From NCBI GenBank assembly GCA_025993795.1, contig JAMQHL010000048.1, forward strand, positions 1 through 64,000: a stretch of 64,000 nt of DNA. Reading direction: 5' to 3'. The DNA is from Planctomycetota bacterium (lineage in GTDB: Bacteria; Planctomycetota; UBA8742; UBA2392). How positions within the stretch are numbered: position 1 is the stretch's first letter; every line of letters starts with the position of its first letter. Positions 19,330 through 35,684 of the stretch are shown here, in pieces. Under the pieces are notes generated by a model. It did no database searches and was not told the origin of the DNA. It was given only the letters and a program-made list of their open reading frames with translations. The position numbers and the translations under genes were made by a program.

Positions 19330-19573
19330 CCTCACGTTGCCGTCGGCATCTACGGCAAGTGCCTCCGCATCGGCGCCGGCAGACTGGCCGTGTCATGAAA
19401 GTCCCTGCGACGATAGCGGTTGGAGCGCAGCAATTCTGTATGCCTTGGCGAGTGTCGTAGCGCCCGGCCCGGAGCTGCAGCCACCATTGTGGATGCCTTC
19501 AATGAGCCTGCGGGGGTTGGAGGACGGGTCCGCACCTGATTCGCGAACCCCGTCTGTGCAGTGCCAGCCGGCG

Positions 19574-20506
19574 CTAAGCGTTGACCGCGACCTTGTCGAG
19601 GATCTTGCGCACGATTTCCTGGCCGCTGCGGCCGCCGCGCCGGTCAAAGCTGGCGCGCTCGATGACCCGGTGGCTCAGCACGGGCACGGCGATGGCTTTC
19701 ACGTCGTCGGGCACCACGAAGTCGCGGCCCTCGGTCAAGGCATACGCTTGCGAAGCCCGGAACAGCGCCACTGAGCCGCGTGGCGAAACGCCGCTGAGAA
19801 GCTTGGGGTGGTGGCGCGTCTCGCCGACGATCTCAAGGATGTAGTCGGCGATGCTTGCGTCCACGCGAACTTTCTTGACGGCTTCCTGGATCACAAGCAC
19901 GTCTTCGCGCGTCAGCACGCGCTCGACGCGTTGCAGTGTGTCGTTGTCGGCATGTTCGAACAGGATGCGCTTTTCGTCTTCGACGCCCGGGTACCCGACC
20001 TCGAACTTCAGCATGAAGCGGTCAAGCTGCGACTCAGGCAGCGGGTAAGTGCCCGCATGCTCAATCGGGTTCTGTGTCGCGATCACGAAGAACGGGCGTG
20101 ATAACTTGCGCGTCTGGCCCTCTGCAGTGATCTGCAACTCGCCCATGGCCTCAAGCAGCGCGCTTTGGGTGCGCGGCGTGGCGCGGTTGATTTCGTCAGC
20201 GAGCAGGATGTTGGTGAACACCGGCCCTTCACGAAACTCAAACGCGCTGTCGTGCTGCCGATAGATGCTGGTGCCGATAATGTCTGTCGGCAAAAGATCG
20301 GGCGTGAACTGCACGCGCTTGAAATCGCAACCCACGGCGCGTGCCAATGCCCGCGCCAGGGTGGTCTTTCCCAGCCCCGGCAGGTCCTCGATTAGAACAT
20401 GCCCGCGCGCAAACAAGCCCGTGAGCAACAGCCGCACGACCTCAGGCTTCCCGATCAAGGCGCGGGAAAGCTGATTGGCAAGTTTGGATGCAAGTGCAGC
20501 CGGCAT
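19574..20506 (-). CDS. MoxR-family AAA+ ATPase
   Basis: The 310-residue protein is a compact MoxR AAA+ ATPase: Walker A DLPGLGKTT (41-49), Walker B LLADEINRA, sensor 1 IATQNPIEHAGTYPLPESQLDRF, and a C-terminal lid. MoxR ATPases act as chaperones that work with von Willebrand/DUF58 partners on metalloenzyme or envelope-protein maturation. No partner is adjacent here; DUF58 and a second MoxR lie 8-9 kb away in the 24696-30475 operon. The frame is open upstream to 20719 but only the part from the ATG at 20506 is conserved; the ribosome-binding site (TCTGGGG) is modest. Confidence 0.85.
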   Translation of the reverse strand: MPAALASKLANQLSRALIGKPEVVRLLLTGLFARGHVLIEDLPGLGKTTLARALARAVGCDFKRVQFTPDLLPTDIIGTSIYRQHDSAFEFREGPVFTNILLADEINRATPRTQSALLEAMGELQITAEGQTRKLSRPFFVIATQNPIEHAGTYPLPESQLDRFMLKFEVGYPGVEDEKRILFEHADNDTLQRVERVLTREDVLVIQEAVKKVRVDASIADYILEIVGETRHHPKLLSGVSPRGSVALFRASQAYALTEGRDFVVPDDVKAIAVPVLSHRVIERASFDRRGGRSGQEIVRKILDKVAVNA

Positions 20507-20785
20507 GAAGCCCCAGATTACGGTTGAGCGGCGAAAGCCACAACGCCCCTGATGATAACGGCTTGCGCCAGCCAAAGTTCCGGACAATCGCGAAGAGTTG
20601 CCGGCGCTGCCACGGACGACCTTTGGCCACGGAACACGCGTGTCTTGCGGACGGCTACAAGGCGACAGGACAGGCTGGATGCCAAGAAGTGAATCGCGCA
20701 CACTGCATGCCCGGTTCATTCCATTGCCTTTCTCCGTGTTCTTCGGCGACCTCCGTGGCGGCTTTACGGCTTTCGGCGGGGGTCA

Positions 20786-21976
20786 CTAAATGCTCTCTGC
20801 CTTTTCCTGCGCGGCTTTGCCTTCTTCTTTCTTGCCGGCGGCCTCCAGCACCAGCCCCAAGGTGTGCCAGGCCTTCTTCAGGCGCAGCTTGTGGTTTTCG
20901 TCGGTCGCCCCGCTGGCTTCTTCGAGTTCGCGCGCCTTGGTCAGGGCCTCGATCGCCTGGTCCCACTTCTCGCCGCCGGCCAGCACTTCGCCCAGCGCGT
21001 ACCAGCTCTTGCCCTGGCTTACCTTGTCCGCATTCTGCTGCTCTTTCAGCCGGATCGACTTGCGGTAGGCCTCAACCGCTTCCGGCATCTGGCCCATTTC
21101 CTTGTGGCTTTCGGCCAAGCCGTGCAGCATGTAGGCGATCTCCAGCGGCGCGACCTTGTTGGCTTCGGCTTGCTGGATCAGCTTCTTGCGCTGCATCACG
21201 CCTTTCACAAATCGTCCGGCGTCGTGATAGGCCTCGGCCATATTGCGCTGGATCTGCAGCTTATAGTCGGCGGGCATCTTCGCCTTCTCGGCCAGGTCGC
21301 CGGCTTTGCGGTACAGCTCGGCGATCTGTTGGAACTCGCCCTCAAGCTGCTTTTCAAGAATCGCAATCTGCGGCGGCGCCGACGCCCCCTGCATGCCCTT
21401 CTGCACCTTCACGCTGGCCTGCATGGGCGCGATCTTCTGCTTAATGCTGTCGGCCAGATACAGCGTCAGCGTGGACATGCTTGCGTCGTCAACGCCGATC
21501 TGCTCGGCCAGTTTTACGGCCTTCGCGAACTGGTCCCCGGCTTCTTTGGGGCGGCCGCTGCGGAACATGCACTCGGCGTAGCGGTAAGTGACATTGAACT
21601 GTGACTCGGGCGGCGCACCGCAGGCTACTTTCTTGGCCGCGGCGGTGTTGAAGGCCTCAATGGCGTCGTCGAGTTTGTCGGTGCGGGCCAGTGCTTCGCC
21701 CAGCTTGGCATAGCTTGTGGCGTGGCCGTTGGCGTCGGCGCCGCCTTTTTCTTCAAGCTCGATCATTTTGCGAAACGCGTTGACTGCGTCTGGGGCCTTT
21801 TCGCGGGCCAGCGCGATACCGCCCACGCCCTCCCAGAAGGCTGCGGCATCAAGTGGTTGAAGGCCGGCCGGCGGTTCAAGCTTGCCCCCGCCAACCTCTT
21901 GCAGGATGACTTCGGCGCCGGACGTTTCTCCCTGGTAAAAGAGTTCCAGTGCTTCGTCGATCTTCGCGTGCGCCAT
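20786..21976 (-). CDS. Tetratricopeptide-repeat protein
   Basis: The ATG at 21976 with GGAG six bases upstream gives a 396-residue, all-helical, soluble protein built from TPR units (for example ATSYAKLGEALARTDKLDDAIEAF and KSWYALGEVLAGGEKWDQAIEAL). There is no signal peptide or membrane helix, so it is a cytoplasmic scaffold. It lies upstream of the MoxR gene on the same strand with a 279-base gap, so co-transcription is possible but not certain. No enzymatic domain seen. Confidence 0.75.
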   Translation of the reverse strand: MAHAKIDEALELFYQGETSGAEVILQEVGGGKLEPPAGLQPLDAAAFWEGVGGIALAREKAPDAVNAFRKMIELEEKGGADANGHATSYAKLGEALARTDKLDDAIEAFNTAAAKKVACGAPPESQFNVTYRYAECMFRSGRPKEAGDQFAKAVKLAEQIGVDDASMSTLTLYLADSIKQKIAPMQASVKVQKGMQGASAPPQIAILEKQLEGEFQQIAELYRKAGDLAEKAKMPADYKLQIQRNMAEAYHDAGRFVKGVMQRKKLIQQAEANKVAPLEIAYMLHGLAESHKEMGQMPEAVEAYRKSIRLKEQQNADKVSQGKSWYALGEVLAGGEKWDQAIEALTKARELEEASGATDENHKLRLKKAWHTLGLVLEAAGKKEEGKAAQEKAESI

Positions 21977-22038
21977 GGGTGTCTCCGGTGCGAGCCTAGT
22001 AAATCGTCGTTCCAGATTCGAGGTTCGATGTGATCGGT

Positions 22039-22857
22039 TCAGCCCACGATCTTTTCGACCATGTCCCACAGGCGGTCGCGCGAGTCCTTCAGCAGCGCAA
22101 TGCCGTGGGGGCGGCGCTCTTTGAACCTTGAATAGAACTTGCCCGTAACGCCCTGCAACTCAGGCGCGGTGGCCATCCACACGGACGGTTTGGCGCCGTC
22201 GGTGGGGCTGCGCATCAGCAGGTTGATCCAGAACTGGATGAACTTGGGGAAGTGGCGAAACAGGTTGGTGCCCACAATGCCGGGGTGCAGCGAGTTGGCG
22301 GTGACCACGCCGGCTTCGCGTTCGGCCCAGGTTATGGAGAGCATCGTCAGCGCCAGCTTGCTCTGTCGGTATGCACGGCGCGGCGAGTAGACGCCCTTGA
22401 GGTTCGGGTCTTCCCAGTGGATGACGCCGTTGAGGTGCTCTTCGCTGGAGACATTGACGATTCGGCCCTTGGCGGCGCGCAGCGCCTCAATCAGCGCCCT
22501 GGTCAGCAGGTGCGGGGCGAGCGTGTTGACGGCCCAGGTTTCATCGTGGCCTTCGGGCGTGATGGTCTGCTTGTCGGCCCAGATGCCCGCGTTGTTGATC
22601 AGCGCGTGGATCTGCCCGTGGCTGGCGGCGATGCGCGCGGCGCCTTCGCGCACGCTTGCCAGCAAAGCCATGTCCATGGCAACGCCTTCCGCAGAGCCGC
22701 CGGCGGCTTTGATGTCGTCAAGGGCGGGCTTGCAGCGGTCTTCCGAGCGGGCGATGACGACGACATGGGCGCCGCGTCCGGCAAGCTCAACGGCGCCAAT
22801 GCGGCCAATGCCCGACCCGGCGCCAGTGATCACGAAAGTCTTGCCCTTCAGGTCCAT
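22039..22857 (-). CDS. Short-chain dehydrogenase/reductase
   Basis: This is a 272-residue classical SDR. TGAGSGIG (about 11-18) is the cofactor loop, NNAG follows beta-4, the catalytic Ser sits in VNVSSEEH, and the Tyr/Lys pair is in YRQSK. The A-R-S motif after beta-2 suits NADP. The sequence most resembles retinol dehydrogenase/oxidoreductase-type SDRs acting on alcohols or ketones; the true substrate is unknown. The ATG at 22857 immediately precedes the conserved start of the fold (MDLKGKTFVITGAG). No good ribosome-binding site is seen, and the frame is open upstream without coding character. Confidence 0.85.
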   Translation of the reverse strand: MDLKGKTFVITGAGSGIGRIGAVELAGRGAHVVVIARSEDRCKPALDDIKAAGGSAEGVAMDMALLASVREGAARIAASHGQIHALINNAGIWADKQTITPEGHDETWAVNTLAPHLLTRALIEALRAAKGRIVNVSSEEHLNGVIHWEDPNLKGVYSPRRAYRQSKLALTMLSITWAEREAGVVTANSLHPGIVGTNLFRHFPKFIQFWINLLMRSPTDGAKPSVWMATAPELQGVTGKFYSRFKERRPHGIALLKDSRDRLWDMVEKIVG

Positions 22858-23045
22858 GCAGGGATGATGGGAGTACCTGGGCAGGGGCGCAAGTGCGGTT
22901 CGCCTGCAACTGAAACCGTGTTTCGTTCTGGTCACATGAAGCGAGAGATCTCCACATCCCGCTCTTCCCGCCATCGACCGTGACACCGGTTGAGTCACTT
23001 GTTTTCCTGACAATTGCCGCAACAATCCCGCCTGGCATTCGGACC

Positions 23046-23100
23046 GCGGGCTTCCAGCCCGCAATTTGTGCGGACGGGACGTCCGCGCTCCCTACGGAGC
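23046..23100 (+). promoter_or_regulatory. Three consecutive hairpins in the proS leader, the last covering the ribosome-binding site
   Basis: Three perfect GC-rich stems follow one another: 23046-23052 with 23056-23062 (7 bp, loop TCC), 23070-23076 with 23080-23086 (7 bp, loop GGA), and 23087-23091 with 23096-23100 (5 bp, loop CTAC). The right arm of the third contains GGAG, the proS ribosome-binding site, five bases before the ATG. It may be a dispersed palindromic repeat that inserted here, or a translational control element. Confidence 0.5.
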
Positions 23101-23104
23101 GATC

Positions 23105-24637
23105 ATGGCTAAGAACATCAAAACCCGTGCCGAAGACTACTCGCAATGGTACCTCGACGTCATCAAAGCCGCGCAGCTGGCTGATTACGCGCCCGTGCGC
23201 GGCTGCATGGTGATTCGCCCCGAGGGCTTTGCACTGTGGGAGGCGATCCAGCGCGACCTTGACCGGCGCTTCAAAGAGACCGGCCACGTCAACGCGTACT
23301 TTCCCCTGCTGATCCCCATGAACTTTCTCGCCAAGGAGGCCCAGCACGTTGAGGGCTTTGCCATGGAGTGCGCGGTCGTCACGCACCATCGCCTTGAGAA
23401 AGACGACAAGGGCGGCCTCAAAGCCGCCGGTGAGCTTGAAGAACCTTTCGTCATCCGGCCCACAAGCGAAACTGTCATCGGCCACATGTACGCCCAATGG
23501 ATCCAGAGCTATCGCGACCTGCCCGTGCTGATCAACCAATGGTGCAACGTCATGCGCTGGGAATTGCGCACCCGCCTTTTCCTGCGCACAGCCGAGTTCC
23601 TGTGGCAGGAAGGCCACACCGCGCACGAGACGCACGACGAGGCGCAGGAAGAAACGCTGCGCATGCTGGATGTGTACGCCAACTTTGCCGAGGAGTTCCT
23701 GGCACTACCCGTGGTCAAGGGCCGCAAGACGGAAAGCGAGAAGTTCCCCGGCGCCGACGCCACATATGCCATTGAAGGCCTGATGCAGGACGGCAAAGCC
23801 CTGCAAGCCGGCACATCCCACAACCTGGGGCAGAACTTTGCCAAGGCCTTCGACATCAAGTTCCTCGGCCGCGACAACAAGCAGCAGCACGCCTGGACGA
23901 CAAGTTGGGGCGTTAGCACGCGGCTGATAGGCGCGCTTATCATGGCGCACAGCGATGACGACGGGCTTGTGCTGCCCCCCAAGGTCGCGCCCGTGGTGCT
24001 GGCAATCGTGCCCATCTTCAAGACCGACGAAGACCGTGCCAAGGTCTCTGCGTTCATTGACAAGGCGGTTGCGGCGCTTGTGGGAGAAGAGGAAGTTGCG
24101 GCAGCTGCCAAACGCAAGCAGGGCGACCTTGCCAGCTACTTCTTTGACAAGGCCACGGGACAGCGCATTGTCGTGGATTGGCGCGACAATCGCCCCGGCG
24201 ACAAACAGTTCCACTGGGAACAGCGTGGTGTGCCCTTCCGCATGGAGGTTGGCCCCCGCGATGTGGATTCGGGCAACGTCGTGATGAAGCGCCGTTTCGA
24301 CCGCGCCAAGGAAGCTGTAGAGGCCGGCAAGCTTACGCCCGCGCACCTTCGCACCGAGCTTGCAGACGTGCAGCGCCTGATGTTTGAGAAGGCCCTGGCC
24401 TTCCGCAACGCCAGCACGCATTTCGTGACCAGCTACGACGAGATGAAGGCCAAGCTGGAGACAGGCGGATTCGTACGCTGCTTCTTTCACCACGGCAAAG
24501 AAGCCGAGGCCAAGATCAAAGAAGAAACCAAGGCCACCGTGCGCTGCATACCCTTTGACGCTCAGGACAAGCGGGGCAAGTGCGTCTACTCAGGCAAAGA
24601 TGACGCCCCCGAAGTGATCTTCGCCGTGGCCTATTGA
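23105..24637 (+). CDS. proS: Prolyl-tRNA synthetase, archaeal/eukaryotic type
   Basis: The 510-residue enzyme charges tRNA-Pro. It is the short type without the bacterial editing insertion, with class II motifs in order: RFKETGHVNAYFPLLIP (motif 1 region), FVIRPTSETVIGHMY, RWELRTRLFLRTAEFLWQEGHTAH (motif 2) and the anticodon-binding domain from about 290. A C-terminal domain follows, ending in a Tyr (VAY), as is typical for this type. The archaeal/eukaryotic form occurs in a minority of bacteria. The start is the ATG at 23105, with GGAG five bases upstream inside a leader hairpin. The gene is followed by a clear terminator and is probably monocistronic. Confidence 0.95.
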   Translation: MAKNIKTRAEDYSQWYLDVIKAAQLADYAPVRGCMVIRPEGFALWEAIQRDLDRRFKETGHVNAYFPLLIPMNFLAKEAQHVEGFAMECAVVTHHRLEKDDKGGLKAAGELEEPFVIRPTSETVIGHMYAQWIQSYRDLPVLINQWCNVMRWELRTRLFLRTAEFLWQEGHTAHETHDEAQEETLRMLDVYANFAEEFLALPVVKGRKTESEKFPGADATYAIEGLMQDGKALQAGTSHNLGQNFAKAFDIKFLGRDNKQQHAWTTSWGVSTRLIGALIMAHSDDDGLVLPPKVAPVVLAIVPIFKTDEDRAKVSAFIDKAVAALVGEEEVAAAAKRKQGDLASYFFDKATGQRIVVDWRDNRPGDKQFHWEQRGVPFRMEVGPRDVDSGNVVMKRRFDRAKEAVEAGKLTPAHLRTELADVQRLMFEKALAFRNASTHFVTSYDEMKAKLETGGFVRCFFHHGKEAEAKIKEETKATVRCIPFDAQDKRGKCVYSGKDDAPEVIFAVAY

Positions 24638-24640
24638 AGT

Positions 24641-24665
24641 CCCGCGACGGAAGTCGCGGGCTTTC
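24641..24665 (+). terminator. Rho-independent terminator after proS
   Basis: The perfect 8-bp stem CCCGCGAC / GTCGCGGG with a GGAA tetraloop begins four bases after the proS stop and is followed by CTTT. The T run is short. Confidence 0.65.
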
Positions 24666-24695
24666 CCGGCTGATATCCCTCGCCATAATGACTTG

Positions 24696-25940
24696 ATGCG
24701 CAAGGCGTTTGACCTCAGGCCGCTGGACTTTGGCGACGTGATGGGGCGGGGGTTCTCGCTCTATGCCGCGGCGTTTGTTGCCTTTGCGCGCTGGTTTCTA
24801 CTCGCGTACACGCTGCCGATGGTTCTGCTTACCGTGGCGCTGTACCTGATGTTCGACCCCTACAACTGGGTCGGCCATTCCGCCCGCCGTGAGCCCGGTG
24901 TCTGGGAAATCAACTCTCTCGCGGCCTATTACTGGCTGCTCAAGCTTGCTTCCGTCATATTCGGCACAACGGTGGGCGCCGCCGGTGTCTACTACCTGGG
25001 CTCGCGCCTTTACGTCGGCGGTCAGCCCACCCTGGTCGAGGTCGCCCGGGCATTCTATGCGCGAAGCACGCACTTGCTGGGCGCGTCGCTGTTGCATCTT
25101 GGCGCGGTGCTGGGCATCACGCTGGTTCTGTTCGGGTTGCCGATTTCGATGGCGCTCGGCGGTGAGGGGACCGGCGCCGTGGGCATGGCCGTCATGTTTT
25201 CCTTCCTGTGGGTGCCGCTGCTGGGCTGGTACCTGGGCGCATTTGGCCTCAATGTCCCGAGCGTGATGCTGGACGATGCTGAAGCAACCGAGAGCTTTGG
25301 TCGCAGCAAGTTCCTGACTCACGGTTTCCGGATGCGGCTGCTTGGCGTGATGGTATGCGCCGCACTGCTGGTCGGCGCGCCGGGGTTGCCGGGGCTGCTT
25401 ACGGTGCCGGCCTGGGTCGGCCAGTCGCTGCTTGAGGACGCGCAGTGGCCGCTGATCGGCGACCTGATTCGCGTGTTGTGGGACGGAGTGCTGCTGCCGC
25501 TGTTTTTCACGCCGGTTGTGGTGTTCTACTTCGACATGCGCTGCCGCAAAGAAGGCTACGATCTTGCCGTGATGGCCCGCAACTTCGGCATCGAGGAAGG
25601 CGAGATGATGCGCTATCGCATGAACCCGGACGTCGGCTATCGCCCACCAGGGTACAAGCCGCCCAAGGGCCGCCGGGCCAGCGTGCCGCGCATGCCGCAG
25701 GTGCAGCCACAACAGAACTGGGGCGGAAATCCACACTGGCAGCCGGCACCGCAGTGGGGCCCGCCGCCTCCCGGGTGGCAAGCGGGCCCGCCGCCGCCGG
25801 GCTGGATGCCGCCGCCACCGCCGCCAGGTTGGCAGCCGGGCCCGCCACCGCCGGGATGGGCCAACCCTCAATGGGCGCCACCACAGACCGGGCAAGGCCC
25901 ACCGCTGCCGCGCATGCCATTGCGCCGGAGGGACCCGTGA
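24696..25940 (+). CDS. Multi-pass membrane protein with Pro/Gly/Trp-rich tail
   Basis: The 414-residue protein has about six membrane helices (roughly 30-52, 76-102, 128-150, 160-182, 208-235, 262-282). It then carries the Y-F-D-M-R-C-R-K-E-G-Y-D-L signature seen at the end of glycerophosphodiester-phosphodiesterase-membrane-domain-like proteins. The last 80 residues are low-complexity P/G/W/Q, with repeated GPPPPGW units, and are probably disordered. It is the first gene of the operon that continues with DUF4129, DUF4350, MoxR and DUF58; its stop overlaps the next start (GTGA). Function unknown; likely a membrane partner of the MoxR system. Confidence 0.7.
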   Translation: MRKAFDLRPLDFGDVMGRGFSLYAAAFVAFARWFLLAYTLPMVLLTVALYLMFDPYNWVGHSARREPGVWEINSLAAYYWLLKLASVIFGTTVGAAGVYYLGSRLYVGGQPTLVEVARAFYARSTHLLGASLLHLGAVLGITLVLFGLPISMALGGEGTGAVGMAVMFSFLWVPLLGWYLGAFGLNVPSVMLDDAEATESFGRSKFLTHGFRMRLLGVMVCAALLVGAPGLPGLLTVPAWVGQSLLEDAQWPLIGDLIRVLWDGVLLPLFFTPVVVFYFDMRCRKEGYDLAVMARNFGIEEGEMMRYRMNPDVGYRPPGYKPPKGRRASVPRMPQVQPQQNWGGNPHWQPAPQWGPPPPGWQAGPPPPGWMPPPPPPGWQPGPPPPGWANPQWAPPQTGQGPPLPRMPLRRRDP

Positions 25941-26839
25941 CGAGACGCGTCCCGGCTGGTGCGTATGTGGGCCTGTTCGTTTGCGTCGCGCTGTTGCTGG
26001 CAGGCGTGCCGCTGCATGCCCAGAACACGGGGCAAGAACCCAAGGCCAAGCGGATTCTTGAGCGGCCGGAGTACAAGGGATACCGGGTCGAGACCCGCGA
26101 GTACGAAGGCGGCGAGGGTCAACCCGGTGACGTTTCCAATCAGCCATCGACCAACAGCCAGCCAGGTGAAGACAGCGGCTACTCTGAAGGCGAGACGGGG
26201 TGGCGCAAAGAGCGCGGATATCGCCGCAGCGGCGAAGCCGGACCGTCCCGCACGCCCCAGCGCCCGAGTGGCCGCGAAGACAGCAGCAGCAGCGGCTCGT
26301 CAGCGGACCTGAGCTGGCTTGGCGCGGTGTTTCAGGTTGTGTTCTGGGTAATCGTGATTGCTGCGGCGCTGGTGGCGATCTTTTTCATTGTGAAGGCCCT
26401 GATGGGCCTCAAGCTGAAGCGCAAGCCCAAGGCCGCAAAGAAGAAAGCAAACAGCCGGAAGAAACCTGGCGAAAGCACTGTAGCGCCTGCTGACGACAAC
26501 CTGCCGGAATTGCCGCCGGAGTTCGAAGACGCGCTGGTTCTCGCGCAGCGCGAATTCGAAGCGGCCCTGCATGCCCGCGACTGGGCCAAGGCGGCGCTGC
26601 TTGCTTACCGCATATTCTGGCTCAGGGCCGGTTGGCGCGGATGTGTTGAGCAGGCCGACGTAAAGACCTGGCGCGACGCACTGGCAATGGTGCGCGGCAG
26701 TGAAATGCGCGTGCGCGTACGGGAGCTGTTGCCGCTGGTAGAGAGCGTTCGCTACGGGCAGCACGTGCCGGCTGAGCGCGAGTTTGAAGACTGGAAACGC
26801 CGCCTGGACCAGATTGAACCGCGCGGGGTGCTGAGTTGA
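25937..26839 (+). CDS. DUF4129-containing membrane protein
   Basis: The GTG at 25937 overlaps the preceding stop and has GGAGGG just upstream. The 300-residue product has an N-terminal signal or anchor (VGLFVCVALLLAGVPLHAQ), an exported polar region (30-125), a membrane helix (about 128-152) and a basic linker. It ends with a cytoplasmic helical domain (about 190-290; EFEAALHARDWAKAALLAYRIFWLRAGW...) typical of DUF4129. DUF4129 proteins sit beside MoxR, DUF58, DUF4350 and transglutaminase genes in many bacteria. Role in the complex unknown. Confidence 0.75.
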   Translation: MTRRVPAGAYVGLFVCVALLLAGVPLHAQNTGQEPKAKRILERPEYKGYRVETREYEGGEGQPGDVSNQPSTNSQPGEDSGYSEGETGWRKERGYRRSGEAGPSRTPQRPSGREDSSSSGSSADLSWLGAVFQVVFWVIVIAAALVAIFFIVKALMGLKLKRKPKAAKKKANSRKKPGESTVAPADDNLPELPPEFEDALVLAQREFEAALHARDWAKAALLAYRIFWLRAGWRGCVEQADVKTWRDALAMVRGSEMRVRVRELLPLVESVRYGQHVPAEREFEDWKRRLDQIEPRGVLS

Positions 26840-28107
26840 GCGAGCCCGCGCCCCAGGCCAATCCCGTCCGACGCGAAACCATTTTCCGCGTGGTCATGGT
26901 CGGTGCGTTCATCGTGACTACCGTGATCTGGCTCGTGGTCGGCATATTTGACGCGCCACTGGTGCCCGACAACTTCACGAACAGCCATTCGGGCTCGCCG
27001 GGTGGTCACCACGCGTTTGTCGAGCTGCTGAAAGAGAACGGGCGCACGGTGCGGCGAGAGGCCGTCCGCCTGGAGTTGCCCGAGTACGATGCATACAAAG
27101 GCGCGACGTTGATGATTCTGGAGCCTCGCCCCGAGTTCGTGGACGAGTATCCCGGCGAGCTGGAGAACCTGCTGAAAGACGCGCGCGACATGCCTTCCAG
27201 TGTTGTTCTCGCGCTGCCGAAGCGGGCCTACTACCCCGAGTACGAGGACGAGAACGGCGACCTTGTACTTACGGAAGTGATTTTTCCACCCGACTTCGTC
27301 GATGAACTGATGCGGCAATCAGGCTTCGACCGCTGGTTCAAGGTCGGCCATGACAGGCGCGACAAGGTGCCCGTCTTGTCGATCGAGAACGGCGCAGACC
27401 GCCAGGTCAGCACCGAGATTCACCATCCCGTGCAAGTGCTGCGGCCGAGAAGTGAACTGTCAGACCTGCCCGCAACCGTTGAAATCATTGCCGCCACTGA
27501 CCGCGGTGACGCAATCGCTGTTCGGCTGCGCGGCGGCCTGGTGCTGGTCAGCGACCCGGACATGTTCTCCAACCGCTTTCTCGGTGAGCCCGGGATGGCG
27601 GACCTGGCGTTGGCGATGCTGCGAGGAGCGCCCCCGAAGGGCGAAATCGTCATCGACGAGGCGCTGCACGGGTTTGGCGCAGACTCAAGTCTTGAGTACC
27701 TTGCAGCCACTCCGCCGGGGTTGTGGGTGACGCTGAGCGTAGTGCTTGTAATGCTGCTGTTCGGCTGGCGACAGGCGACGGTGCTACGCCCGATTGATGC
27801 CGAGGTGCAGGACCGCGCCGAGCGACGGTATGCGATCGAGGGCCTGGCACGAATGATGGAGCGCACAGGTGCCCATGATGAAGCCGCACGGCGCATCGTA
27901 AGGCGGTCGTGGCTTGTCCTGGGCCAAGGGGTGGCGCAGGTGCAGGGCGCGGGCAAAGCCACTACGGCGATTCGCAAGGGGCGCACCGGGCGCGTCGTGA
28001 GGATGTCAGGCGCAAGCAGCGAGGAAAAACTTGTCAACATCGCGCGTCGTGTGGCACACCAGAAACGCTCGGGCGAAACCGAACACAGCCAGCTATGGTC
28101 AGACTGA
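26836..28107 (+). CDS. DUF4350-domain membrane protein
   Basis: A TTG at 26836 overlaps the DUF4129 stop (TTGA). The 423-residue protein has an N-terminal anchor (about 16-37), then an exported DUF4350 domain (about 50-280) with NSHSGSPGGHHAFVELL and RGGLVLVSDPDMFSNRF, resembling the GATase-like ABC-transporter periplasmic fold. A second membrane helix (about 295-313) and a basic cytoplasmic tail follow. DUF4350 regularly neighbours MoxR and DUF58; the fold is thought to bind ligand or partner rather than to catalyse. Coupled translation with DUF4129 suggests a fixed ratio. Confidence 0.75.
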   Translation: MSEPAPQANPVRRETIFRVVMVGAFIVTTVIWLVVGIFDAPLVPDNFTNSHSGSPGGHHAFVELLKENGRTVRREAVRLELPEYDAYKGATLMILEPRPEFVDEYPGELENLLKDARDMPSSVVLALPKRAYYPEYEDENGDLVLTEVIFPPDFVDELMRQSGFDRWFKVGHDRRDKVPVLSIENGADRQVSTEIHHPVQVLRPRSELSDLPATVEIIAATDRGDAIAVRLRGGLVLVSDPDMFSNRFLGEPGMADLALAMLRGAPPKGEIVIDEALHGFGADSSLEYLAATPPGLWVTLSVVLVMLLFGWRQATVLRPIDAEVQDRAERRYAIEGLARMMERTGAHDEAARRIVRRSWLVLGQGVAQVQGAGKATTAIRKGRTGRVVRMSGASSEEKLVNIARRVAHQKRSGETEHSQLWSD

Positions 28108-28131
28108 GTGCGCGTCGTGTAAGGAAACGAA

Positions 28132-29154
28132 ATGAACGAGTTCAATGAACCGATGCCCGACCCGTCACAGGCTGCAACGCCGATGCCGGCGACAGAGCCT
28201 CCAGAGCGCAAAATGCAGCGGTTTGCCGACGCGCTTGAGCACGCAGTCGACAAAGTGGTAAAGGGCCAGCCGGGCGTCGTGCGCCACATCCTGGTCGCGA
28301 TGCTGGTACAGGGGCACGTCCTGCTTGAGGGCAACCCCGGCACCGCCAAGACTCTGCTGGTGCGCACACTTGGCAAGCTGTGCCAGCTTGAGTTCCGGCG
28401 CATCCAGTTTACGCCCGACCTGATGCCCAGCGACATTACGGGCACCAGCATCTTCCGGCCCGATACCGCACAGTTCGAGTTCCGGCGCGGGCCGGTGTTT
28501 ACGCAACTGCTGCTGGCAGACGAGATCAACCGCGCGCCCGCGCGCACACAGGCTGCGCTGCTGCAGGCGATGCAGGAACGGATTGTCAGCGCCGATGGCC
28601 ACGACCACGAGCTGTCGGACATCTTCTCGGTGATCGCAACCCAGAACCCGCTTGAGAACGAGGGCACCTACCCATTGCCCGAGGCAGAGCTGGATCGCTT
28701 CCTGTTCAAGCTGATGATTGAGTACCCCGACGAGCGCGCCGAAAGCGACATTCTGAAGCAGCACGGGGCGCCCCGCACCGCCGACGAGTTCGCAGGCCTG
28801 GCCGGCAAGCCGCTGTTCGGCAGTGCCGAAATCATGGCGATGCGCAAGATTGTCATGCGCGTCGAAGTGCGGCCCGATATCTCGGACTACACGCTTGCGA
28901 TCATACGGGCCACGCGCGAGCACCCGTTTCTTCGTGCCGGCGCCAGCACACGCGCCGGCGTCATGCTGCTGCGTGCCGCGCGCGCCCTTGCCGCCACACA
29001 CGGCCGCGGCTTTGTTGTGCCCGACGACGTGCGCGCGCTAGCCCCCAGTGCGCTGCGCCACAGGCTGTACCGCACCGCAGCCGCCGAAATGGAAGGAACC
29101 AGCACAGACGCAATCCTGGAAGACATCGTGCAGAGAATACCGCCGCCACGGTAA
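28132..29154 (+). CDS. MoxR-family AAA+ ATPase (operon copy)
   Basis: The 340-residue ATPase has Walker A GNPGTAKT (67-74), Walker B LLADEINRAPARTQAALLQAMQE and sensor 1 IATQNPLENEGTYPLPEAELDRF. AGGAAACGAA precedes the ATG at 28132. It sits between DUF4350 and DUF58 with gaps of 24 and 4 bases, the standard MoxR-DUF58 pairing, where the ATPase is thought to remodel or activate client proteins together with the DUF58/vWA partner. It differs clearly from the MoxR at 19574, so it is not a recent duplicate. Confidence 0.9.
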   Translation: MNEFNEPMPDPSQAATPMPATEPPERKMQRFADALEHAVDKVVKGQPGVVRHILVAMLVQGHVLLEGNPGTAKTLLVRTLGKLCQLEFRRIQFTPDLMPSDITGTSIFRPDTAQFEFRRGPVFTQLLLADEINRAPARTQAALLQAMQERIVSADGHDHELSDIFSVIATQNPLENEGTYPLPEAELDRFLFKLMIEYPDERAESDILKQHGAPRTADEFAGLAGKPLFGSAEIMAMRKIVMRVEVRPDISDYTLAIIRATREHPFLRAGASTRAGVMLLRAARALAATHGRGFVVPDDVRALAPSALRHRLYRTAAAEMEGTSTDAILEDIVQRIPPPR

Positions 29155-29158
29155 ATCC

Positions 29159-30475
29159 ATGGGTTACTCGCCAACACGCATTACGCTGATCCTGGGGCTG
29201 GCGCTCGTTGCCCTGAGCGTGTTTGCGTTGACCGATGCATCGCTGGTGCTGCCGTGGTCGGTTGCATGTGGCGGTCTGTGCCTGGTGATTGCCGTGGACG
29301 CGTTGTTTCTGCCGCGCAAGGCGCAACTCGGTCTGCACCGCGGCGTGCCGACAGAAGTCGGCATTGGCGTTCCCTTCACCATGACGCTCGCCCTGCAGAA
29401 CGAGAGTGCCCGCGCCATCCATGGCGCGGTCTTTGACCTGTTGCCGCCAAGCATGGAAGGGCTGCGCGTGGCGCTGCCCTACGCGCTGTCACCCGACGAG
29501 CAGGCCGAGTGGAGTTTCGAGCTGACCGCCCATGATCGCGGGGCATTCACACTGGACGCGGCAACGATCGTGATGACCGGCCCGTTGCGCCTGATGCGCC
29601 GCATCGTGCGGGGCAGCGCGCCGGCCACGGTGTCCGTGATCCCGGGCGTCGAAATCCTGCGCAGCAACGAACTGATCCTGAAGGCGGCCCGCGACGCCGA
29701 CGCCGGCATCACCCGCGCCCGCGGCATCGGTCGCGGCGGCGAGTTTGAGTCGCTCGCGCCCTATGTGCCCGGCGACCCGCCGCAAGCGGTGGACTGGAAG
29801 GCTTATGCGCGCACCGGCCAGCTGGCTGTGCGCCGCTATGTGCCCGAGCGCCGACGCCACATCATGCTTGCATGCGACGCCGGGCGCCTGATGGGCACGC
29901 GCGTGGGCAGCACGCGCAAGATTGACCTGGCACTGGAAGCGATGACCCGCGTCGCGGCGGCGGCGCTGCAACGCGGCGACCTGGTTGGCATGGTGATCTT
30001 TGATGGCGAAGTGCAGAGCCTCATACCCCCGCGTGCGGGCAGCGGGCAGCTTGCCAAGATCGTGCGGGCGTCACTGAACGTCAAGCCGCGCCACACCGAG
30101 ACCGCATTCACGCCGGCGTTTGTGGCGCTGAACCACGCGCTGCCGCGGCGCGCGCTGGTGATCCTGGCAACGGACTTTGACAACGAGGCCCAGGGCTGGG
30201 AGTTGCAGCGCAACATCGCGCAGATTACGCGCCGGCACGTTGCGATTGTGGCTGCCATGCGCGACCCGGTGTACCACGCGACGGTGGCCGCCGAGGTCAA
30301 CGACGCCAGCGACGCTTACCGCCAACTCGCGTCGCTGACGCTGCTAGAAGAGCGCCAGATGATCCTCAGCCGTATCCACTCAACCGGCGTGCATGTGATC
30401 GACGCCGAGCCCGCCGAGCTGCAAGGCCCGCTGCTCAACATGTACGGCAGCGTCGTCACCGGCGGCCGCCTGTAA
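29159..30475 (+). CDS. DUF58 (vWA-like) membrane-anchored protein
   Basis: The 438-residue protein has two N-terminal membrane helices (about 8-25 and 32-50), a strand-rich middle, and the DUF58 signature FESLAPYVPGDPPQAVDWKA at about 195-215. A vWA-like C-terminal domain starts at HIMLACDAGR. It starts four bases after the MoxR stop. DUF58 proteins are the regular partner of MoxR ATPases. The last approximately 110 bp of the gene, including the stop codon, are repeated 2.86 kb downstream at 33225-33334. Confidence 0.88.
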   Translation: MGYSPTRITLILGLALVALSVFALTDASLVLPWSVACGGLCLVIAVDALFLPRKAQLGLHRGVPTEVGIGVPFTMTLALQNESARAIHGAVFDLLPPSMEGLRVALPYALSPDEQAEWSFELTAHDRGAFTLDAATIVMTGPLRLMRRIVRGSAPATVSVIPGVEILRSNELILKAARDADAGITRARGIGRGGEFESLAPYVPGDPPQAVDWKAYARTGQLAVRRYVPERRRHIMLACDAGRLMGTRVGSTRKIDLALEAMTRVAAAALQRGDLVGMVIFDGEVQSLIPPRAGSGQLAKIVRASLNVKPRHTETAFTPAFVALNHALPRRALVILATDFDNEAQGWELQRNIAQITRRHVAIVAAMRDPVYHATVAAEVNDASDAYRQLASLTLLEERQMILSRIHSTGVHVIDAEPAELQGPLLNMYGSVVTGGRL

Positions 30476-30477
30476 GC
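30368..30477 (+). repeat. 110-bp direct repeat, copy 1 (3' end of the DUF58 gene)
   Basis: These bases recur at 33225-33334 with only two substitutions, both within the first 20 bases of the repeat. The copy includes the DUF58 stop codon plus two bases. Similarity ends sharply on both sides. Confidence 0.95.
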
Positions 30478-30574
30478 CGGCACAGTTTTCGTTAGACAAT
30501 CTTGCTTTAGATTTGCCCCACCCCAGAAACCGGATAGCTTGGCCGGTCCGGTTGGGCGCAAGGAGGGAGCAGTC

Positions 30575-32133
30575 ATGCGAATCAGCGCACAAGTTCTTGG
30601 TGTTCTGGCGCACCTCGTTTTCGCGGGTTTGCTGCACGGCGGCGCTAACCCGAAGGTGCTTGCGGTAGCAGACATTCGGGAGTCTATCCCGTCCGACCTG
30701 CACGACTTGGCGATCCCGCCGGAACCCATTGCGCTGGACTGGTCGCTTGACGTAGCAGCGGGCAATGTTGTTCTGGACCGCGGGCTTGAGGTCACGCACG
30801 TCCGTTTTAACCACCACACCGGCCACGCTCAGGACGCCATGGAAATTCGGTGGTGCTTTGGTGGTGCTTTGAGGAAGAGCTGTTTCACGCGGACAGCAAC
30901 TTCGAAGGCGAGTACATTCCTGACGAGAAGCGGAACGACCCCTCAGCCTACGTAAACGGAATCACTCCGACGATCCAGGTTGTGATTCGCTCAAAGCAAC
31001 CGGACCCAGCCAACCCGGGCCAGTTCATTGACGACAGGTTCATCGGACGCAGCGTGATCTGGGCGACGGCAGAGGCCAGCGATCCGAACATTGGGGTTGC
31101 GTTCCTGTCCTTGAAACGGAAGCGCGTCTTCTTTGTAAACGGCGAGTCCCGTGACAGCGACCATCCGGGAGCATCGAAGCATGTGACGTTCGACGTTGGG
31201 GGCTCAATTCCGAGCGGATTCAATGCGTACAAGTGGAGTTTCACTTTCCACCTTGAGGGAGTCTGGGACGGCGCCGGCAACCTGATTGACGCGCAGGACG
31301 CTCAAGGAACCCCGATTGAATCCAAATTCGACAAGACTGCTGAACTTCACGCTTACTCAACGATTGGGCTGCCATCACTGCCTTGGAACACATCTCGGAT
31401 CCAAACTAAGCCGTGGGTCAATGCCATTGCATACGCAGGATACAAGTGCGGTACATTTGGCGGCGCGACTGCTGTGGAAGTCGCCGACAAAATCATTGCC
31501 TTCCTGCACTCCGGTCAAGGAATGCACTCGTACAACCACACCACGGGGGTTCCTTCGTACGGCTATGCAGGCGCGGATGAACGGCGCCAGACATGGGGCA
31601 TGTTCAATCTCACATCCTACATGTTTTGAGGTAAACTGGTGAACTGTGTCGATCAGGCACTTGCGGTGTCTTGCCTTGTGAACGTAGCCGCGCGGGATGG
31701 CACGAAGGTGGAGTTCCTGAGCCGTTTCGGCTATGTGCACCAGACGATATCCGTTGCTGGTGCACGGTTCAACAACCCCTTCTTTCTGGGGGTTCAAGTC
31801 TGGCCTTTCCCAGTTGTGAATGCCGACTCCACATACTCGCTAATCTTCGCCCTTGGCGCATACTGGTACGAGCGAACATTTCTTAAGTCCCACTTCTGGG
31901 TATCCCTTGCCAGCGGAGCCATTGGTGATGCGTGCTTTGGACCCGTGCTGACAGCAAGCGGACTTGGTCGCGCTACGTACATAGATAGCATTCGAGATAC
32001 CTCAACAACACCTGAACGTGTCATTCTCGAAAAGGATTCGCGTGGAACATGGAACGCGGTTCCTGTAGGCACTACTGGGCAGGCTGTGCATGCGCGTGCA
32101 TTTCTATTGGGACGTCACGGCCAGGCAAAATAG
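30575..32133 (+). pseudogene. Secreted transglutaminase-like protein, broken by a frameshift and an in-frame UGA
   Basis: AAGGAGG eight bases upstream supports the ATG at 30575, which starts a signal-peptide-like N-terminus. The frame is lost at 30849-30870, where 11 bases are tandemly duplicated; removing one copy fuses MEIRWCF directly to EEELFHAD and opens the frame to 31626. There a UGA (31627-31629) interrupts the same frame, and coding sequence resumes at once with GKLVNCVDQA. After it come the Cys of NCVDQA, the His of KSHFWV and the Asp of IGDACFGP, which match the Cys-His-Asp triad of transglutaminase-like proteases. Repaired, the protein would be about 515 residues. GAGGT seven bases before a GTG at 31639 could restart translation, but such a product would begin three residues before the catalytic Cys. 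Confidence 0.75.
30849..30870 (+). repeat. 11-bp perfect tandem duplication causing a frameshift
   Basis: GGTGGTGCTTT occurs twice back to back. Deleting one copy restores a continuous reading frame through the transglutaminase-like gene. It could be a fixed mutation or a slippage-prone on/off switch. Confidence 0.9.
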
Positions 32134-32168
32134 CCACAACGGGTGCAAGGAACGTCGGAGGGCTGCAA

Positions 32169-33218
32169 ATGCGCGGATCTTTTCTCACTTTGGGTTGTGT
32201 TTCGCTTCTCTTGGGATTTGCCACGATGAAGGCCGCTCAAGATGCGTCCGGGCGGTTGTCGGATCCCGATGTTACTGCGGCGCTGCGCTACGCGGCATGG
32301 CCAAAGGTCGAAGGCGAAGTCCGCGGGTACAGTTTTGAAGTTGCCGACTACGCGGCGCTGACCGGTTTCAAAAGCTATTCTGAGGATCTCGGCGCGCATG
32401 TCTGTACGACTGGTCACCTTCCGACATTGGCCGTATGGCTGGGCGGCAGGGATCCTTATCGGTTCATCGTGACGCGCCGCCTTAAACTGAAGTCCGACAG
32501 CGGCAAGGAACTGTCACTGGCAATCGCGGTCGCGCCCTCCGTGCACTATGCTCATCGCTGGATTATCGAACCGCTGGGGGGAGTATCGAGTTTCATCGGC
32601 AACTCGTATGTGCTTGGCGCCGAAAATGATCTGCCGATTGCCGACGTCTGCATTCTTCGTGACCCGCCGGCTAACCGAAGAGACTGGGATCCGAGAACCG
32701 CGAAGTCGCTGTTCTTCATTCGCAACAATGTCGTCGTAGACATTTCCGGCACCGGCTCTGGTGTCGATGTCGTCGCGCTGGCACGTGCCATGGACGCACA
32801 GATTGAACTGCAACGGGCCGCCGCAAATGGCGACCCCGAACGCCCCGAAGTCGAACTTGGGCTTGGCGCAAAAACGGTTCGCGTGAAGGACTTCAGCCCC
32901 GATTTCGCCAGTGTTGACGTAAATTTCGTGGCAAGCTGGGACCGCAAGGCGGAATTGGCAAAGGTCTTCGCCTTCAGCACCAGAGAAGCCGACAACTTCA
33001 AAACGGACGACGACGGTGAATCCGTACCGGATGACGAGCAACCCAAGACATTCGTTGCAGGTTTCCTTCGGTTCGACGACGCATCCAAGCCAACAAAAAT
33101 TGAACAGATCACTCCCGGCAAGGATGGAAAGCACCACGTCGGGATCGCCGCGTGGGGGCCGAACCTGCTTCCGAAAGTTATCTACGTCGAACTCGAAGTC
33201 GTCGGGCGTGATCGCTGA
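32169..33218 (+). CDS. Secreted protein of unknown function next to the transglutaminase-like gene
   Basis: GGAGGG six bases upstream of the ATG at 32169 and a signal peptide (MRGSFLTLGCVSLLLGF..., cleavage near residue 23) define this intact 349-residue protein. The mature part is strand-rich and acidic, with a D/E-rich loop (DDDGESVPDDEQ) near residue 280. No catalytic motif is recognised. It begins 36 bases after the broken transglutaminase-like gene and ends seven bases before the second 110-bp repeat, so the two genes form the cargo of the repeat-bounded segment. Confidence 0.65.
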   Translation: MRGSFLTLGCVSLLLGFATMKAAQDASGRLSDPDVTAALRYAAWPKVEGEVRGYSFEVADYAALTGFKSYSEDLGAHVCTTGHLPTLAVWLGGRDPYRFIVTRRLKLKSDSGKELSLAIAVAPSVHYAHRWIIEPLGGVSSFIGNSYVLGAENDLPIADVCILRDPPANRRDWDPRTAKSLFFIRNNVVVDISGTGSGVDVVALARAMDAQIELQRAAANGDPERPEVELGLGAKTVRVKDFSPDFASVDVNFVASWDRKAELAKVFAFSTREADNFKTDDDGESVPDDEQPKTFVAGFLRFDDASKPTKIEQITPGKDGKHHVGIAAWGPNLLPKVIYVELEVVGRDR

Positions 33219-33224
33219 GCGTCA

Positions 33225-33334
33225 AGCCGTATCCACTCCACGGGCGTGCATGTGATCGACGCCGAGCCCGCCGAGCTGCAAGGCCCGCTGCTCAACATGT
33301 ACGGCAGCGTCGTCACCGGCGGCCGCCTGTAAGC
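33225..33334 (+). repeat. 110-bp direct repeat, copy 2
   Basis: This copy matches 30368-30477 at 108 of 110 bases, including the DUF58 stop codon, but has no DUF58 gene in front of it. Together the copies bracket bases 30478-33224. Confidence 0.95.
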
Positions 33335-33574
33335 GAGCAATCCGGTCATGCGTACGCTCGACGGAAGGAAGCTCGAGACGTTCACGCTGTCCGACAACTG
33401 ACGCACGCGCCTGCGGAGGCGCGGGCCGCGAGGCGCAGAGTCCGTCGCCGCTGTCTTGGGGAACTTCGCCCAACCAATCGTACGCAAGGGTCGCAGCGGC
33501 TCCCTGCTGCACTTGATGTGCCGGTGGCTGGGCCCTAACGTACCGATCCTGAAGCAAGTGTTCAAAGGACGACC
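33335..33574. other. Intergenic stretch with one GC hairpin
   Basis: No gene seen in these 240 bases. A perfect 7-bp stem, CGCGCCT (33406-33412) with AGGCGCG (33417-33423), has a GCGG loop but no T run. Confidence 0.4.
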
Positions 33575-34081
33575 ATGCTCCATCCGGTATCGGGCGACAT
33601 TCTCCTGACAAAATCCGAAGCGATTGCCCACGGCATCGCCCCCAACGACGACTTCAAGCAGGGCCTCGCGCTTGCGCTGCGTGAGCAATACCCGTCCATG
33701 GTCAGGGACTTCCGCCACTGGTGTCATTCTGCCAAGCCCAAACCGGGCGAAGCCTGGATCTGGAGCGGCGTTGGCGCTGAGGGTCGCCCCATCCGGGTGA
33801 TCAACATGATGACCCAGCAGCCGTCGGAGGGGCACGGCCAGCATCCGGGCAGGGCAACACTGGCAAACGTCAACCACGCGCTGCATGCCCTGAAGAAGCT
33901 GGTGGAGAAAGAAGGCCTGAAACGGGTCGCGTTGCCACGCCTGGCAACCGGTGTGGGCGGCCTGAAATGGGACGAGGTTCGTCCACTGCTGCACAAGGTC
34001 CTCGACGACGTGAATTGCGAGTTCTACGTCTACACGACCTACAAAGCCGGGGTGCAGGCCGAGCAAGAAACGAAGTCGTGA
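33575..34081 (+). CDS. Macro-domain protein (ADP-ribose binding, possible ADP-ribosylhydrolase)
   Basis: The 168-residue protein is a single macro domain. GDILLTKSEAIAHGIAPNDDFKQGLA is the N-terminal ADP-ribose loop (about 7-32), and LPRLATGVGGLKWDEV (about 118-133) is the second binding loop, most like the ALC1/TARG1/DarG branch. Such domains bind ADP-ribose or remove it from proteins, DNA or nucleotides. In DarTG the macro protein is the antitoxin of the DNA ADP-ribosyltransferase DarT, but no DarT-like gene lies alongside. AGGA five bases upstream supports the ATG. It is bordered by a repeat-bounded segment and an apparently truncated gene, so it may be acquired DNA. Confidence 0.85.
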   Translation: MLHPVSGDILLTKSEAIAHGIAPNDDFKQGLALALREQYPSMVRDFRHWCHSAKPKPGEAWIWSGVGAEGRPIRVINMMTQQPSEGHGQHPGRATLANVNHALHALKKLVEKEGLKRVALPRLATGVGGLKWDEVRPLLHKVLDDVNCEFYVYTTYKAGVQAEQETKS

Positions 34082-34178
34082 GTGCCCGGCAACTCCGCCA
34101 CCCCGGATGCACTTGCTATCCGACAGCGGGCAGTTCATTGAGCTCTTCCGGAATTGTCGTGTTTGATAGACTCGCCGC

Positions 34179-35366
34179 ATGCACGCGGAATTCGCATATG
34201 TTTTCAGGCACGCAATGCTTCGGGATGCCGCCTATCAGGTTCAGCTGCCCGGAGATCGAGCCATCCTCCACAAGATCGCTCTCGAGTTGATTGAGCTTGT
34301 GTTCGGAGGCAAACCACCAGTACCCCGGCCGCTCGAACCGGGCGTGGAGCCCGACTCGACGCCGCATCCCATCGACCCCATTGCCGGCGATCTGGCCCAG
34401 CATGCGCTGCTCGCGTCGGAGTTACCGGGGGAGGTCGGCCTCGAGCTGCTGAATGCCCGCAAGCTGTATCTGCGGAGGGGCGCAGAGCACAGCGAGCGCA
34501 TGTTTCAGGGAGACAATGCAGCCGAGCAGTGGCGGTCGCTGGCTGAGCTGCTGCACGAGCCAGAGGACGGGGAAGCCCTGCGAAGGGCCGCGTTATGCCT
34601 GATGCGGGGCGGCAGACCGAAGGATGCCGAACCCCTGCTGCACGAAGCGATCAATCTCCTTCGTCGCGGTCGCCACCGTGCAGCGGAAGGAGTAACGCTT
34701 TCCACTCTGGGCCTGCTCCAGTCGGAAACCGGGCGGCGGGAAGAAGCCAGGCAAACGCTGCAGGATGCCCTGATGATCCACCGCGAAACGGGAAACCGAA
34801 ACTCGGAAGGAGCGTCTCTCGCGAATCTCGCGCACTTGCACGCGGTTGAGGGTGACCTCGACCGGGCGATCAGCAACTACGACGACGCCTTGAGGCTCCA
34901 TGAGGAGGTTGACGACCGCCGGCACCAAGCAATCGCCTACGGGAACATCGGGCTGATTCACATGATGAAGCGGCAGCCCGATCTTGCACACGAGTACTAC
35001 CGGCGGGCCTTGGCGACACAGCGTGAACTGGGGCTTCGCCGGTCGGAAGGCATCACACTAGGCAACCTGGCATCGTTGAACTACGAGGTCGGAAAGCTGG
35101 AGCATGCCGCTCGGCTATACGCGGAAGCTTTGGCCGTGCATGTAGAGGTCGGAAACCGCCGCTTCCAGGGTGTGTCGAAATGCGACTTTGCCCTGTGCCT
35201 GCTGGCTATGGGGCAGGCTGGGGAAGCTGAAGTACTTTGGAAGGAAGGCGAATCAGTACTGCGTGAACTTGGTGATACCAGCTCGCTATCGAGGAAGCTC
35301 AACGGCATGCGAAACGCGTGCAGTCAGGCGGGAGTTGCTCCTTTTGATGCCGGACCCACGCCGTAG
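34179..35366 (+). CDS. TPR protein resembling the C-terminal half of an ATPase/kinase-TPR protein
   Basis: The 395-residue frame opens with FAYVFRHAMLRDAAYQVQLPGDR, a stretch that normally links the ATPase part of large signalling proteins (STAND or kinase-ATPase-TPR types) to their TPR tail. Seven or so tetratricopeptide repeats follow (about 120-370; for example GNIGLIHMMKRQPDLAHEYYRRAL). Here nothing lies upstream of the linker: an in-frame stop precedes the ATG by two codons, and there is no ribosome-binding site. It is therefore probably a 5'-truncated remnant, though a stand-alone TPR protein remains possible. Confidence 0.65.
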   Translation: MHAEFAYVFRHAMLRDAAYQVQLPGDRAILHKIALELIELVFGGKPPVPRPLEPGVEPDSTPHPIDPIAGDLAQHALLASELPGEVGLELLNARKLYLRRGAEHSERMFQGDNAAEQWRSLAELLHEPEDGEALRRAALCLMRGGRPKDAEPLLHEAINLLRRGRHRAAEGVTLSTLGLLQSETGRREEARQTLQDALMIHRETGNRNSEGASLANLAHLHAVEGDLDRAISNYDDALRLHEEVDDRRHQAIAYGNIGLIHMMKRQPDLAHEYYRRALATQRELGLRRSEGITLGNLASLNYEVGKLEHAARLYAEALAVHVEVGNRRFQGVSKCDFALCLLAMGQAGEAEVLWKEGESVLRELGDTSSLSRKLNGMRNACSQAGVAPFDAGPTP

Positions 35367-35607
35367 TGTCAGGCATGCGCCCGGTCGAAACTATCGAGCA
35401 TCTGCACGGTTCAACGACGTTTCCAACCCCACCCGGCAGCCTCCCGCACCTCGGCGGGCGGCGCTGCGTCACGCTTCTCACCGCAGGCACGTCATCCTCG
35501 CCCGGACAAGGGCCTTAGAAGCGCCAGATTGTGCTCGCTCGGGGCAAGAAACAGGGGAGCGGGTCGGCAGAGGAATGCCCTGATCGGCTGCAAACCCGCT
35601 CTGTGTT

Positions 35608-35684
35608 TGGTAGCTGGGGCGGGAGTCGAACCCGCGACCTTAGGGTTATGAATCCTATGCTCTAACCACCTGAGCTACCCAGCC
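35608..35684 (-). tRNA. tRNA-Met (anticodon CAU), probably elongator
   Basis: The minus strand gives acceptor GGCTGGG with CCCAGCT, the D arm GCTCAGGTGGTTAGAGC, anticodon loop ATTCATAA, T-loop GGTTCGACTCC, discriminator A and an encoded CCA. The paired first base argues against initiator tRNA. A lysidine-modified tRNA-Ile(CAU) cannot be fully excluded. Confidence 0.93.

Follow-up and report, generated by a model that had tools for sequence, protein, structure and literature searches.

A two-gene cassette behind the duplicated 3' end of a DUF58 gene in a Planctomycetota genome, with further cassettes of the same anatomy

Analysis of a 64,000-nucleotide stretch of DNA from a Planctomycetota bacterium (the window) revealed a foreign, very probably horizontally acquired two-gene cassette that lies behind an intact DUF58 gene and is followed by a second, truncated copy of that gene's 3' end. 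That the cassette was inserted at the gene end, which was duplicated in the process, is very probable whichever mechanism produced it: relatives lack the cassette at this place, its G+C content is low, a sister species (G002) carries the cargo at another place with a flanking repeat of its own, and other cassettes have the same anatomy. A preliminary description of this DNA had already read the segment as cargo that looked inserted or duplicated with a gene end as its junction, and on these grounds we retain its reading as an insertion. The source genome, G000, is a draft assembly of 3.29 Mb in 75 contigs (85% complete), in which the window lies on contig C42; the genomes with which it was compared are mostly draft assemblies as well. 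The coordinates of the features are collected in Table 1.

Table 1. Features of the DUF58 locus in the window and of related loci elsewhere.
Feature	Coordinates	Strand	Details
DUF58/VWA protein gene, intact; 3' end includes repeat copy 1	29159..30475	+	Pfam DUF58, E 9e-31
Repeat copy 1 (proximal): final 108 bases of DUF58 including stop, plus 2 bases	30368..30477	+	
Inserted cassette, 2747 bp	30478..33224	+	56.8% G+C; absent at relatives' DUF58; homolog elsewhere in G002
Cassette gene 1, broken	30575..32133	+	ORFs; alignment with G002 homolog
Cassette gene 2, intact; encodes secreted protein without family assignment	32169..33218	+	ORF; homologs in G002, G011
Repeat copy 2 (distal): 5'-truncated DUF58 end	33225..33334	+	starts 6 nt past gene 2 stop
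Junction region, within the genus unique to G000	33335..35607	.	gene remnants, DarG-like gene, TPR fragment
DarG-like macro-domain gene	33575-34081		Pfam macro domain; PADLOC DarG model, E 3e-22
TPR fragment	34179-35366		
tRNA-Met(CAT), 3' end toward junction region	35608..35684	-	
DUF1015 end duplicated behind two-gene PIN-domain module	L164 10437-13228 (G000:C26)		84 bp, 94%
tRNA-Pro 3' end duplicated behind two-gene cassette with LRR protein	L198 1018-2788 (G000:C29)		22 nt
Tandem tRNA-associated units	L055 8164-8396, L099 675-1010, L056 1049-1435, L120 2239-2419, L221 near 1504		

The two copies of the repeat are identical at 108 of 110 positions (E 1.7e-48). As had been claimed for them, both carry the DUF58 stop codon (30473-30475 and 33330-33332), and each ends in ...CGCCTGTAAGC. 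The two mismatches, TCA/TCC and ACC/ACG, are both synonymous, and to the right of either copy the divergence begins two bases after the stop. A search of the whole G000 genome for the 110-bp sequence returned these two copies and no third. In a survey for close direct repeats that covered about 1.8 of the 3.3 Mb of G000, this repeat ranked first, being the longest near-identical direct repeat with copies less than 15 kb apart. An assembly artefact, which had been raised as a threat to the whole reading, is unlikely since two sites in unique contexts distinguish the copies and the anatomy was found again on other contigs and in another assembly.

The G+C content of the cassette is 56.8%, compared with 67.6% for DUF58. 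Gene 1 is disrupted twice: an 11-bp tandem duplication (30849-30870) shifts its frame, and it also contains an in-frame TGA (31627-31629), while its homolog in G002, with 68% amino acid identity, carries a TAG. Gene 2 is intact, begins with a signal-like peptide and has homologs in G002 (44%) and G011 (28%). The cargo had been described as a broken transglutaminase-like gene and an intact secreted protein; the state of the two genes and the signal-like N-terminus agree with this, but the transglutaminase label drew no support from Pfam, NCBIfam or the PDB and appears to reflect a motif resemblance only (Cys/His/Asp-like). Neither gene had a match in Pfam, NCBIfam or PADLOC, sequence profiles gave no convincing PDB match, and the predicted structures were set aside at a mean pLDDT of 30 (gene 2) and 34 (gene 1). 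Counting the host, homologs of gene 2 occur in 3 of 99 genomes and those of gene 1 in 5 of 99, and a gene 2 profile matched 8 of 392 genomes of the phylum, a number that includes G000 and several weak partial matches. When genome contigs were scanned for gene 1, G002 alone was found. In the distant genome G022, homologs of the two genes lie side by side, and in G011 a transposase gene that encodes an integrase-core (rve) domain splits a gene 1 homolog.

Only the two genes lie between the repeat copies, and the statement in the preliminary description that no recombinase is present inside was borne out; the cassette holds no transposase either. The sole inverted repeat of at least 25 nt in the region is a weak pair located off the cassette ends, and the 6 nt between the gene 2 stop and copy 2 leave no room for an attC site. 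A composite transposon or an integron was rejected on these three grounds. A phage or plasmid origin was also rejected: neither the gene 2 profile nor the PIN protein of the DUF1015 cassette was matched in viral contigs, and the PIN protein was unmatched in plasmids.

The DUF58 locus without the segment was found in relatives. Genes for SpoIIM and RDD come next after DUF58, with no cassette, in G002 (whose DUF58 protein is 97% identical in amino acids) and in five further members of the family, and none of the relatives examined has the cassette at DUF58. The insertion need not be clean, since copy 2 is followed not by SpoIIM and RDD but by the gene remnants, DarG-like gene and TPR fragment that extend up to the tRNA-Met gene. 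No long match to this junction region was present in G001 or G002, and SpoIIM was not found in the 85% complete assembly of G000. By synteny, the neighbours of the DUF58 block (19573-30477) differ from those in G002 on both sides. Since the sequence past copy 2 is non-native and the neighbours of the block have changed, the insertion sits at a rearrangement boundary, without a demonstrable exact empty site. A simple inversion of the block was considered and rejected because it fails to account for both flanks. The borders of the block, at 19329-19573 and 30478-35607, are breaks in synteny with G002, one of which ends at the tRNA-Met, and may represent either a true rearrangement or an assembly misjoin. 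The DarG-like gene shortly past copy 2 has no obvious DarT partner.

G002 has the same gene pair at an unrelated locus (L039 8952-11804) of a different contig, where it lies between an M50-like and a WYL gene that converge and is flanked by an exact 32-bp direct repeat. With G008 as a control, this repeat was identified as the native 3' end of the M50 gene, and a contig end of G000 (C12) has the same WYL-side junction as G002. The right ends of the G000 and G002 cassettes coincide to within about 3 nt of the repeat, and the left flanks of the two are also related (0.9% of shuffles reach the alignment score; p ~0.01). Directly behind the intact gene 2 of G002 lies a decayed 91-bp 3' end of a second gene 2, which is the mark of an earlier module that was displaced. 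We also observed that contig C42 of G002 (L106 1-180) starts with about 100 C, beside a 70-bp sequence that is common to the left flank of the G002 cassette. This sequence sits behind an ABC transporter gene, the last codons of which differ from G000 while the residues are the same.

Two further cassettes in G000 show the same pattern. The first duplicates the end of DUF1015, and in G008, a member of another genus, DUF1015 is followed by the same TatD gene without a cassette. The proximal copy of the DUF1015 end has two synonymous sites in common with G008, while the distal copy has two in common with G001, a closer relative in the same genus; these few sites (two versus two) hint that the proximal end may be the incoming one. 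The second cassette was found by a tRNA scan: the last 22 nt of tRNA-Pro are repeated 2 nt past the cassette stop codon. Every cassette runs in the direction of its upstream gene, which in G002 is WYL, and ends 1-15 nt past the last stop, taken for G002 to be that of the decayed copy of gene 2, and the G+C content of the two cassettes for which it was measured is 55-57%. A scripted search for distal copies that start just past a stop codon gave 12 hits versus 10 in a control interval, so this feature alone is not enriched; among the hits, the proximal copy lay at an ORF end only in the window and at DUF1015, and that of the tRNA-Pro hit lay at a tRNA end. A repeat on contig C22 of G000 (L182) was rejected as a further case, being an ordinary tandem lipoprotein duplication. 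Taken together, the occurrence of one pattern at several genes and a tRNA suggests recurring capture of gene pairs that have no recombinase of their own.

We consider homology-anchored, illegitimate (or Campbell-type) capture of incoming DNA the likeliest mechanism, and give it about an even chance. The cassette would have entered immediately behind DUF58, with the orientation of that gene and with duplication of its 3' end, from incoming DNA of a close relative in which the end of the same gene was followed by the cassette. Homologous recombination in the gene end, acting as the anchor, would leave an intact DUF58 carrying the incoming 3' end. The right junction would then form just past the second stop of the cassette, by illegitimate joining or, with a circular form, by a single crossover of the Campbell type, and would enter the resident DUF58 about 110 bp before its end, so that the resident 3' end would be left beyond the cassette as a dead remnant. 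The foreign cargo, its absence from this locus in relatives, the duplicated gene end and the recurrence of the pattern are observed, and we infer the direction of replacement, the homologous anchor and the illegitimate nature of the right junction. Under this model, the repeat would end at the stop codon because homology between the gene orthologs ends there, and the variable repeat length, with no recombinase needed, would also be explained. Consistent with capture, the copies agree at 108 of 110 positions and end 2 nt past the stop, and the displaced gene-2 end in G002 is the signature described for displacement by homology-facilitated illegitimate recombination (HFIR; PMC5361080). No donor genome with a single-copy DUF58-cassette arrangement was found. 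Against capture, the common right end and related left flanks of the G000 and G002 cassettes suggest a discrete element over random joins, and the tRNA cases, in common with integrase sites, start at the T-loop.

The T-loop borders and the shared cassette ends are indeed explained better by an integrase in trans than by capture. This main rival, somewhat doubtful overall and favoured at the tRNA sites, holds that the cassette is a CIME-like or satellite element that carries the target 3' end as its attachment site, so that a site-specific recombinase supplied in trans would restore the target gene on integration. The 3' ends of DUF58 and DUF1015 are restored through the stop codon, the tRNA-Pro repeat and the 154-155 bp units of four other tRNAs (see below) begin in the T-loop, and the cassette ends are common to G000 and G002. 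However, no cassette contains a recombinase, the protein-gene targets are without a common core sequence, the repeat length ranges from 22 to 110 bp, and a simple motif search of 1.8 Mb yielded only two clear tyrosine recombinases, both XerC/D-like by motif. The proposal of passive integration without a recombinase in the preliminary description fits the segment; its analogy with integrating elements that regenerate a gene end is less certain, there being no common att core between the protein-gene targets.

It is improbable that a transposition mechanism of unknown kind made long and variable target-site duplications: one cassette occupying two unrelated loci, its ends similar and the duplications 32 and 110 bp long, would agree with it, as would the 70-bp left-flank sequence shared with contig C42 of G002 behind the ABC gene, but no transposase was found, and duplications that end within 2 nt of the stop in two cases are unexpected from a random staggered cut. 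A local tandem duplication of the DUF58 end and immobile cargo, followed by deletions or inversion, would suit a locus that is a rearrangement boundary with changed neighbours on both sides relative to G002; it is highly improbable, leaving unexplained why G002 has this pair at another place with a repeat of its own, as well as the DUF1015 and tRNA-Pro cases. Beyond the single locus, one could imagine a lineage cassette system, which we regard as unlikely, in which two-gene modules without recombinases enter co-directionally behind any gene, protein-coding or tRNA, and end at the last stop, with the host 3' end rebuilt, the old end left downstream and one shared mechanism acting in trans.

Integrase-less islands (CIMEs and tRNA-targeting islands) lie between att sites at the 3' ends of genes. 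As with them, a regenerated gene 3' end precedes the cassettes and is duplicated on the far side; unlike these islands, the cassettes have targets unrelated in sequence, no recombinase and a very small cargo of two genes. Capture as we propose it resembles HFIR, which has been proposed for the displacement of T6SS effector-immunity modules in Vibrio cholerae and likewise combines an upstream homologous anchor, a new module and the old 3' end downstream, whereas here unrelated housekeeping genes and a tRNA, instead of an effector locus, would serve as anchors (PMC5361080). Insertion with long target duplication has been reported in Helicobacter pylori (Nobusato et al. 2000 Gene 259:99, as described in PMC1643837 and PMC3031569; PMC2884548 is also cited on the mechanism). 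It shares with our cases a gene complex, a long and variable direct target duplication and an association with rearrangement. Its cargo there consists mostly of restriction-modification genes (frequent, not obligatory), in contrast to the secreted-protein, PIN and LRR pairs found here, and, unlike the H. pylori insertions, the present cassettes are co-directional at gene 3' ends, end at the last stop codon and occur in Planctomycetota. Such insertions carry a direct copy of the target, from tens to hundreds of bp long, on either side; here the duplications measure 110 bp for DUF58, 84 bp for DUF1015 and 32 bp for the G002 pair. DUF58 stands without the cassette in G002 and others, though the right flank in G000 is rearranged. 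Cargo of the restriction-modification type was not found: the DUF58 cassette genes are without a family match, and a PIN-domain pair is present only at DUF1015. No known element family fits fully. The cassettes take long-target-duplication insertion beyond the H. pylori restriction-modification genes for which it was described: the lineage is uncultured, the cargo is different and the architecture is uniform. They also provide concrete loci at which population sequencing could test how small modules without recombinases move.

The repeat sequences found at DUF58, at DUF1015 and at M50/WYL bear no relation to one another and have no common core, while the tRNA sites share the T-loop. A candidate T-loop-like motif was noted by eye and post hoc at the start of the DUF58 repeat (CGTATCCACTC versus CGAATCCTCTC of tRNA-Pro) and is given as a lead only. 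Tandem units of 154-155 bp lie behind tRNA-Met, tRNA-Val, tRNA-Lys and tRNA-Arg of the genus. Each holds the last 22-27 nt of the tRNA and hairpins, most with the palindrome ACAGTCC..GGACTGT, and in the three loci that were scanned against Rfam (L055, L056 and L099) the only matches were tRNAs. These units are possibly small elements that target tRNA 3' ends.
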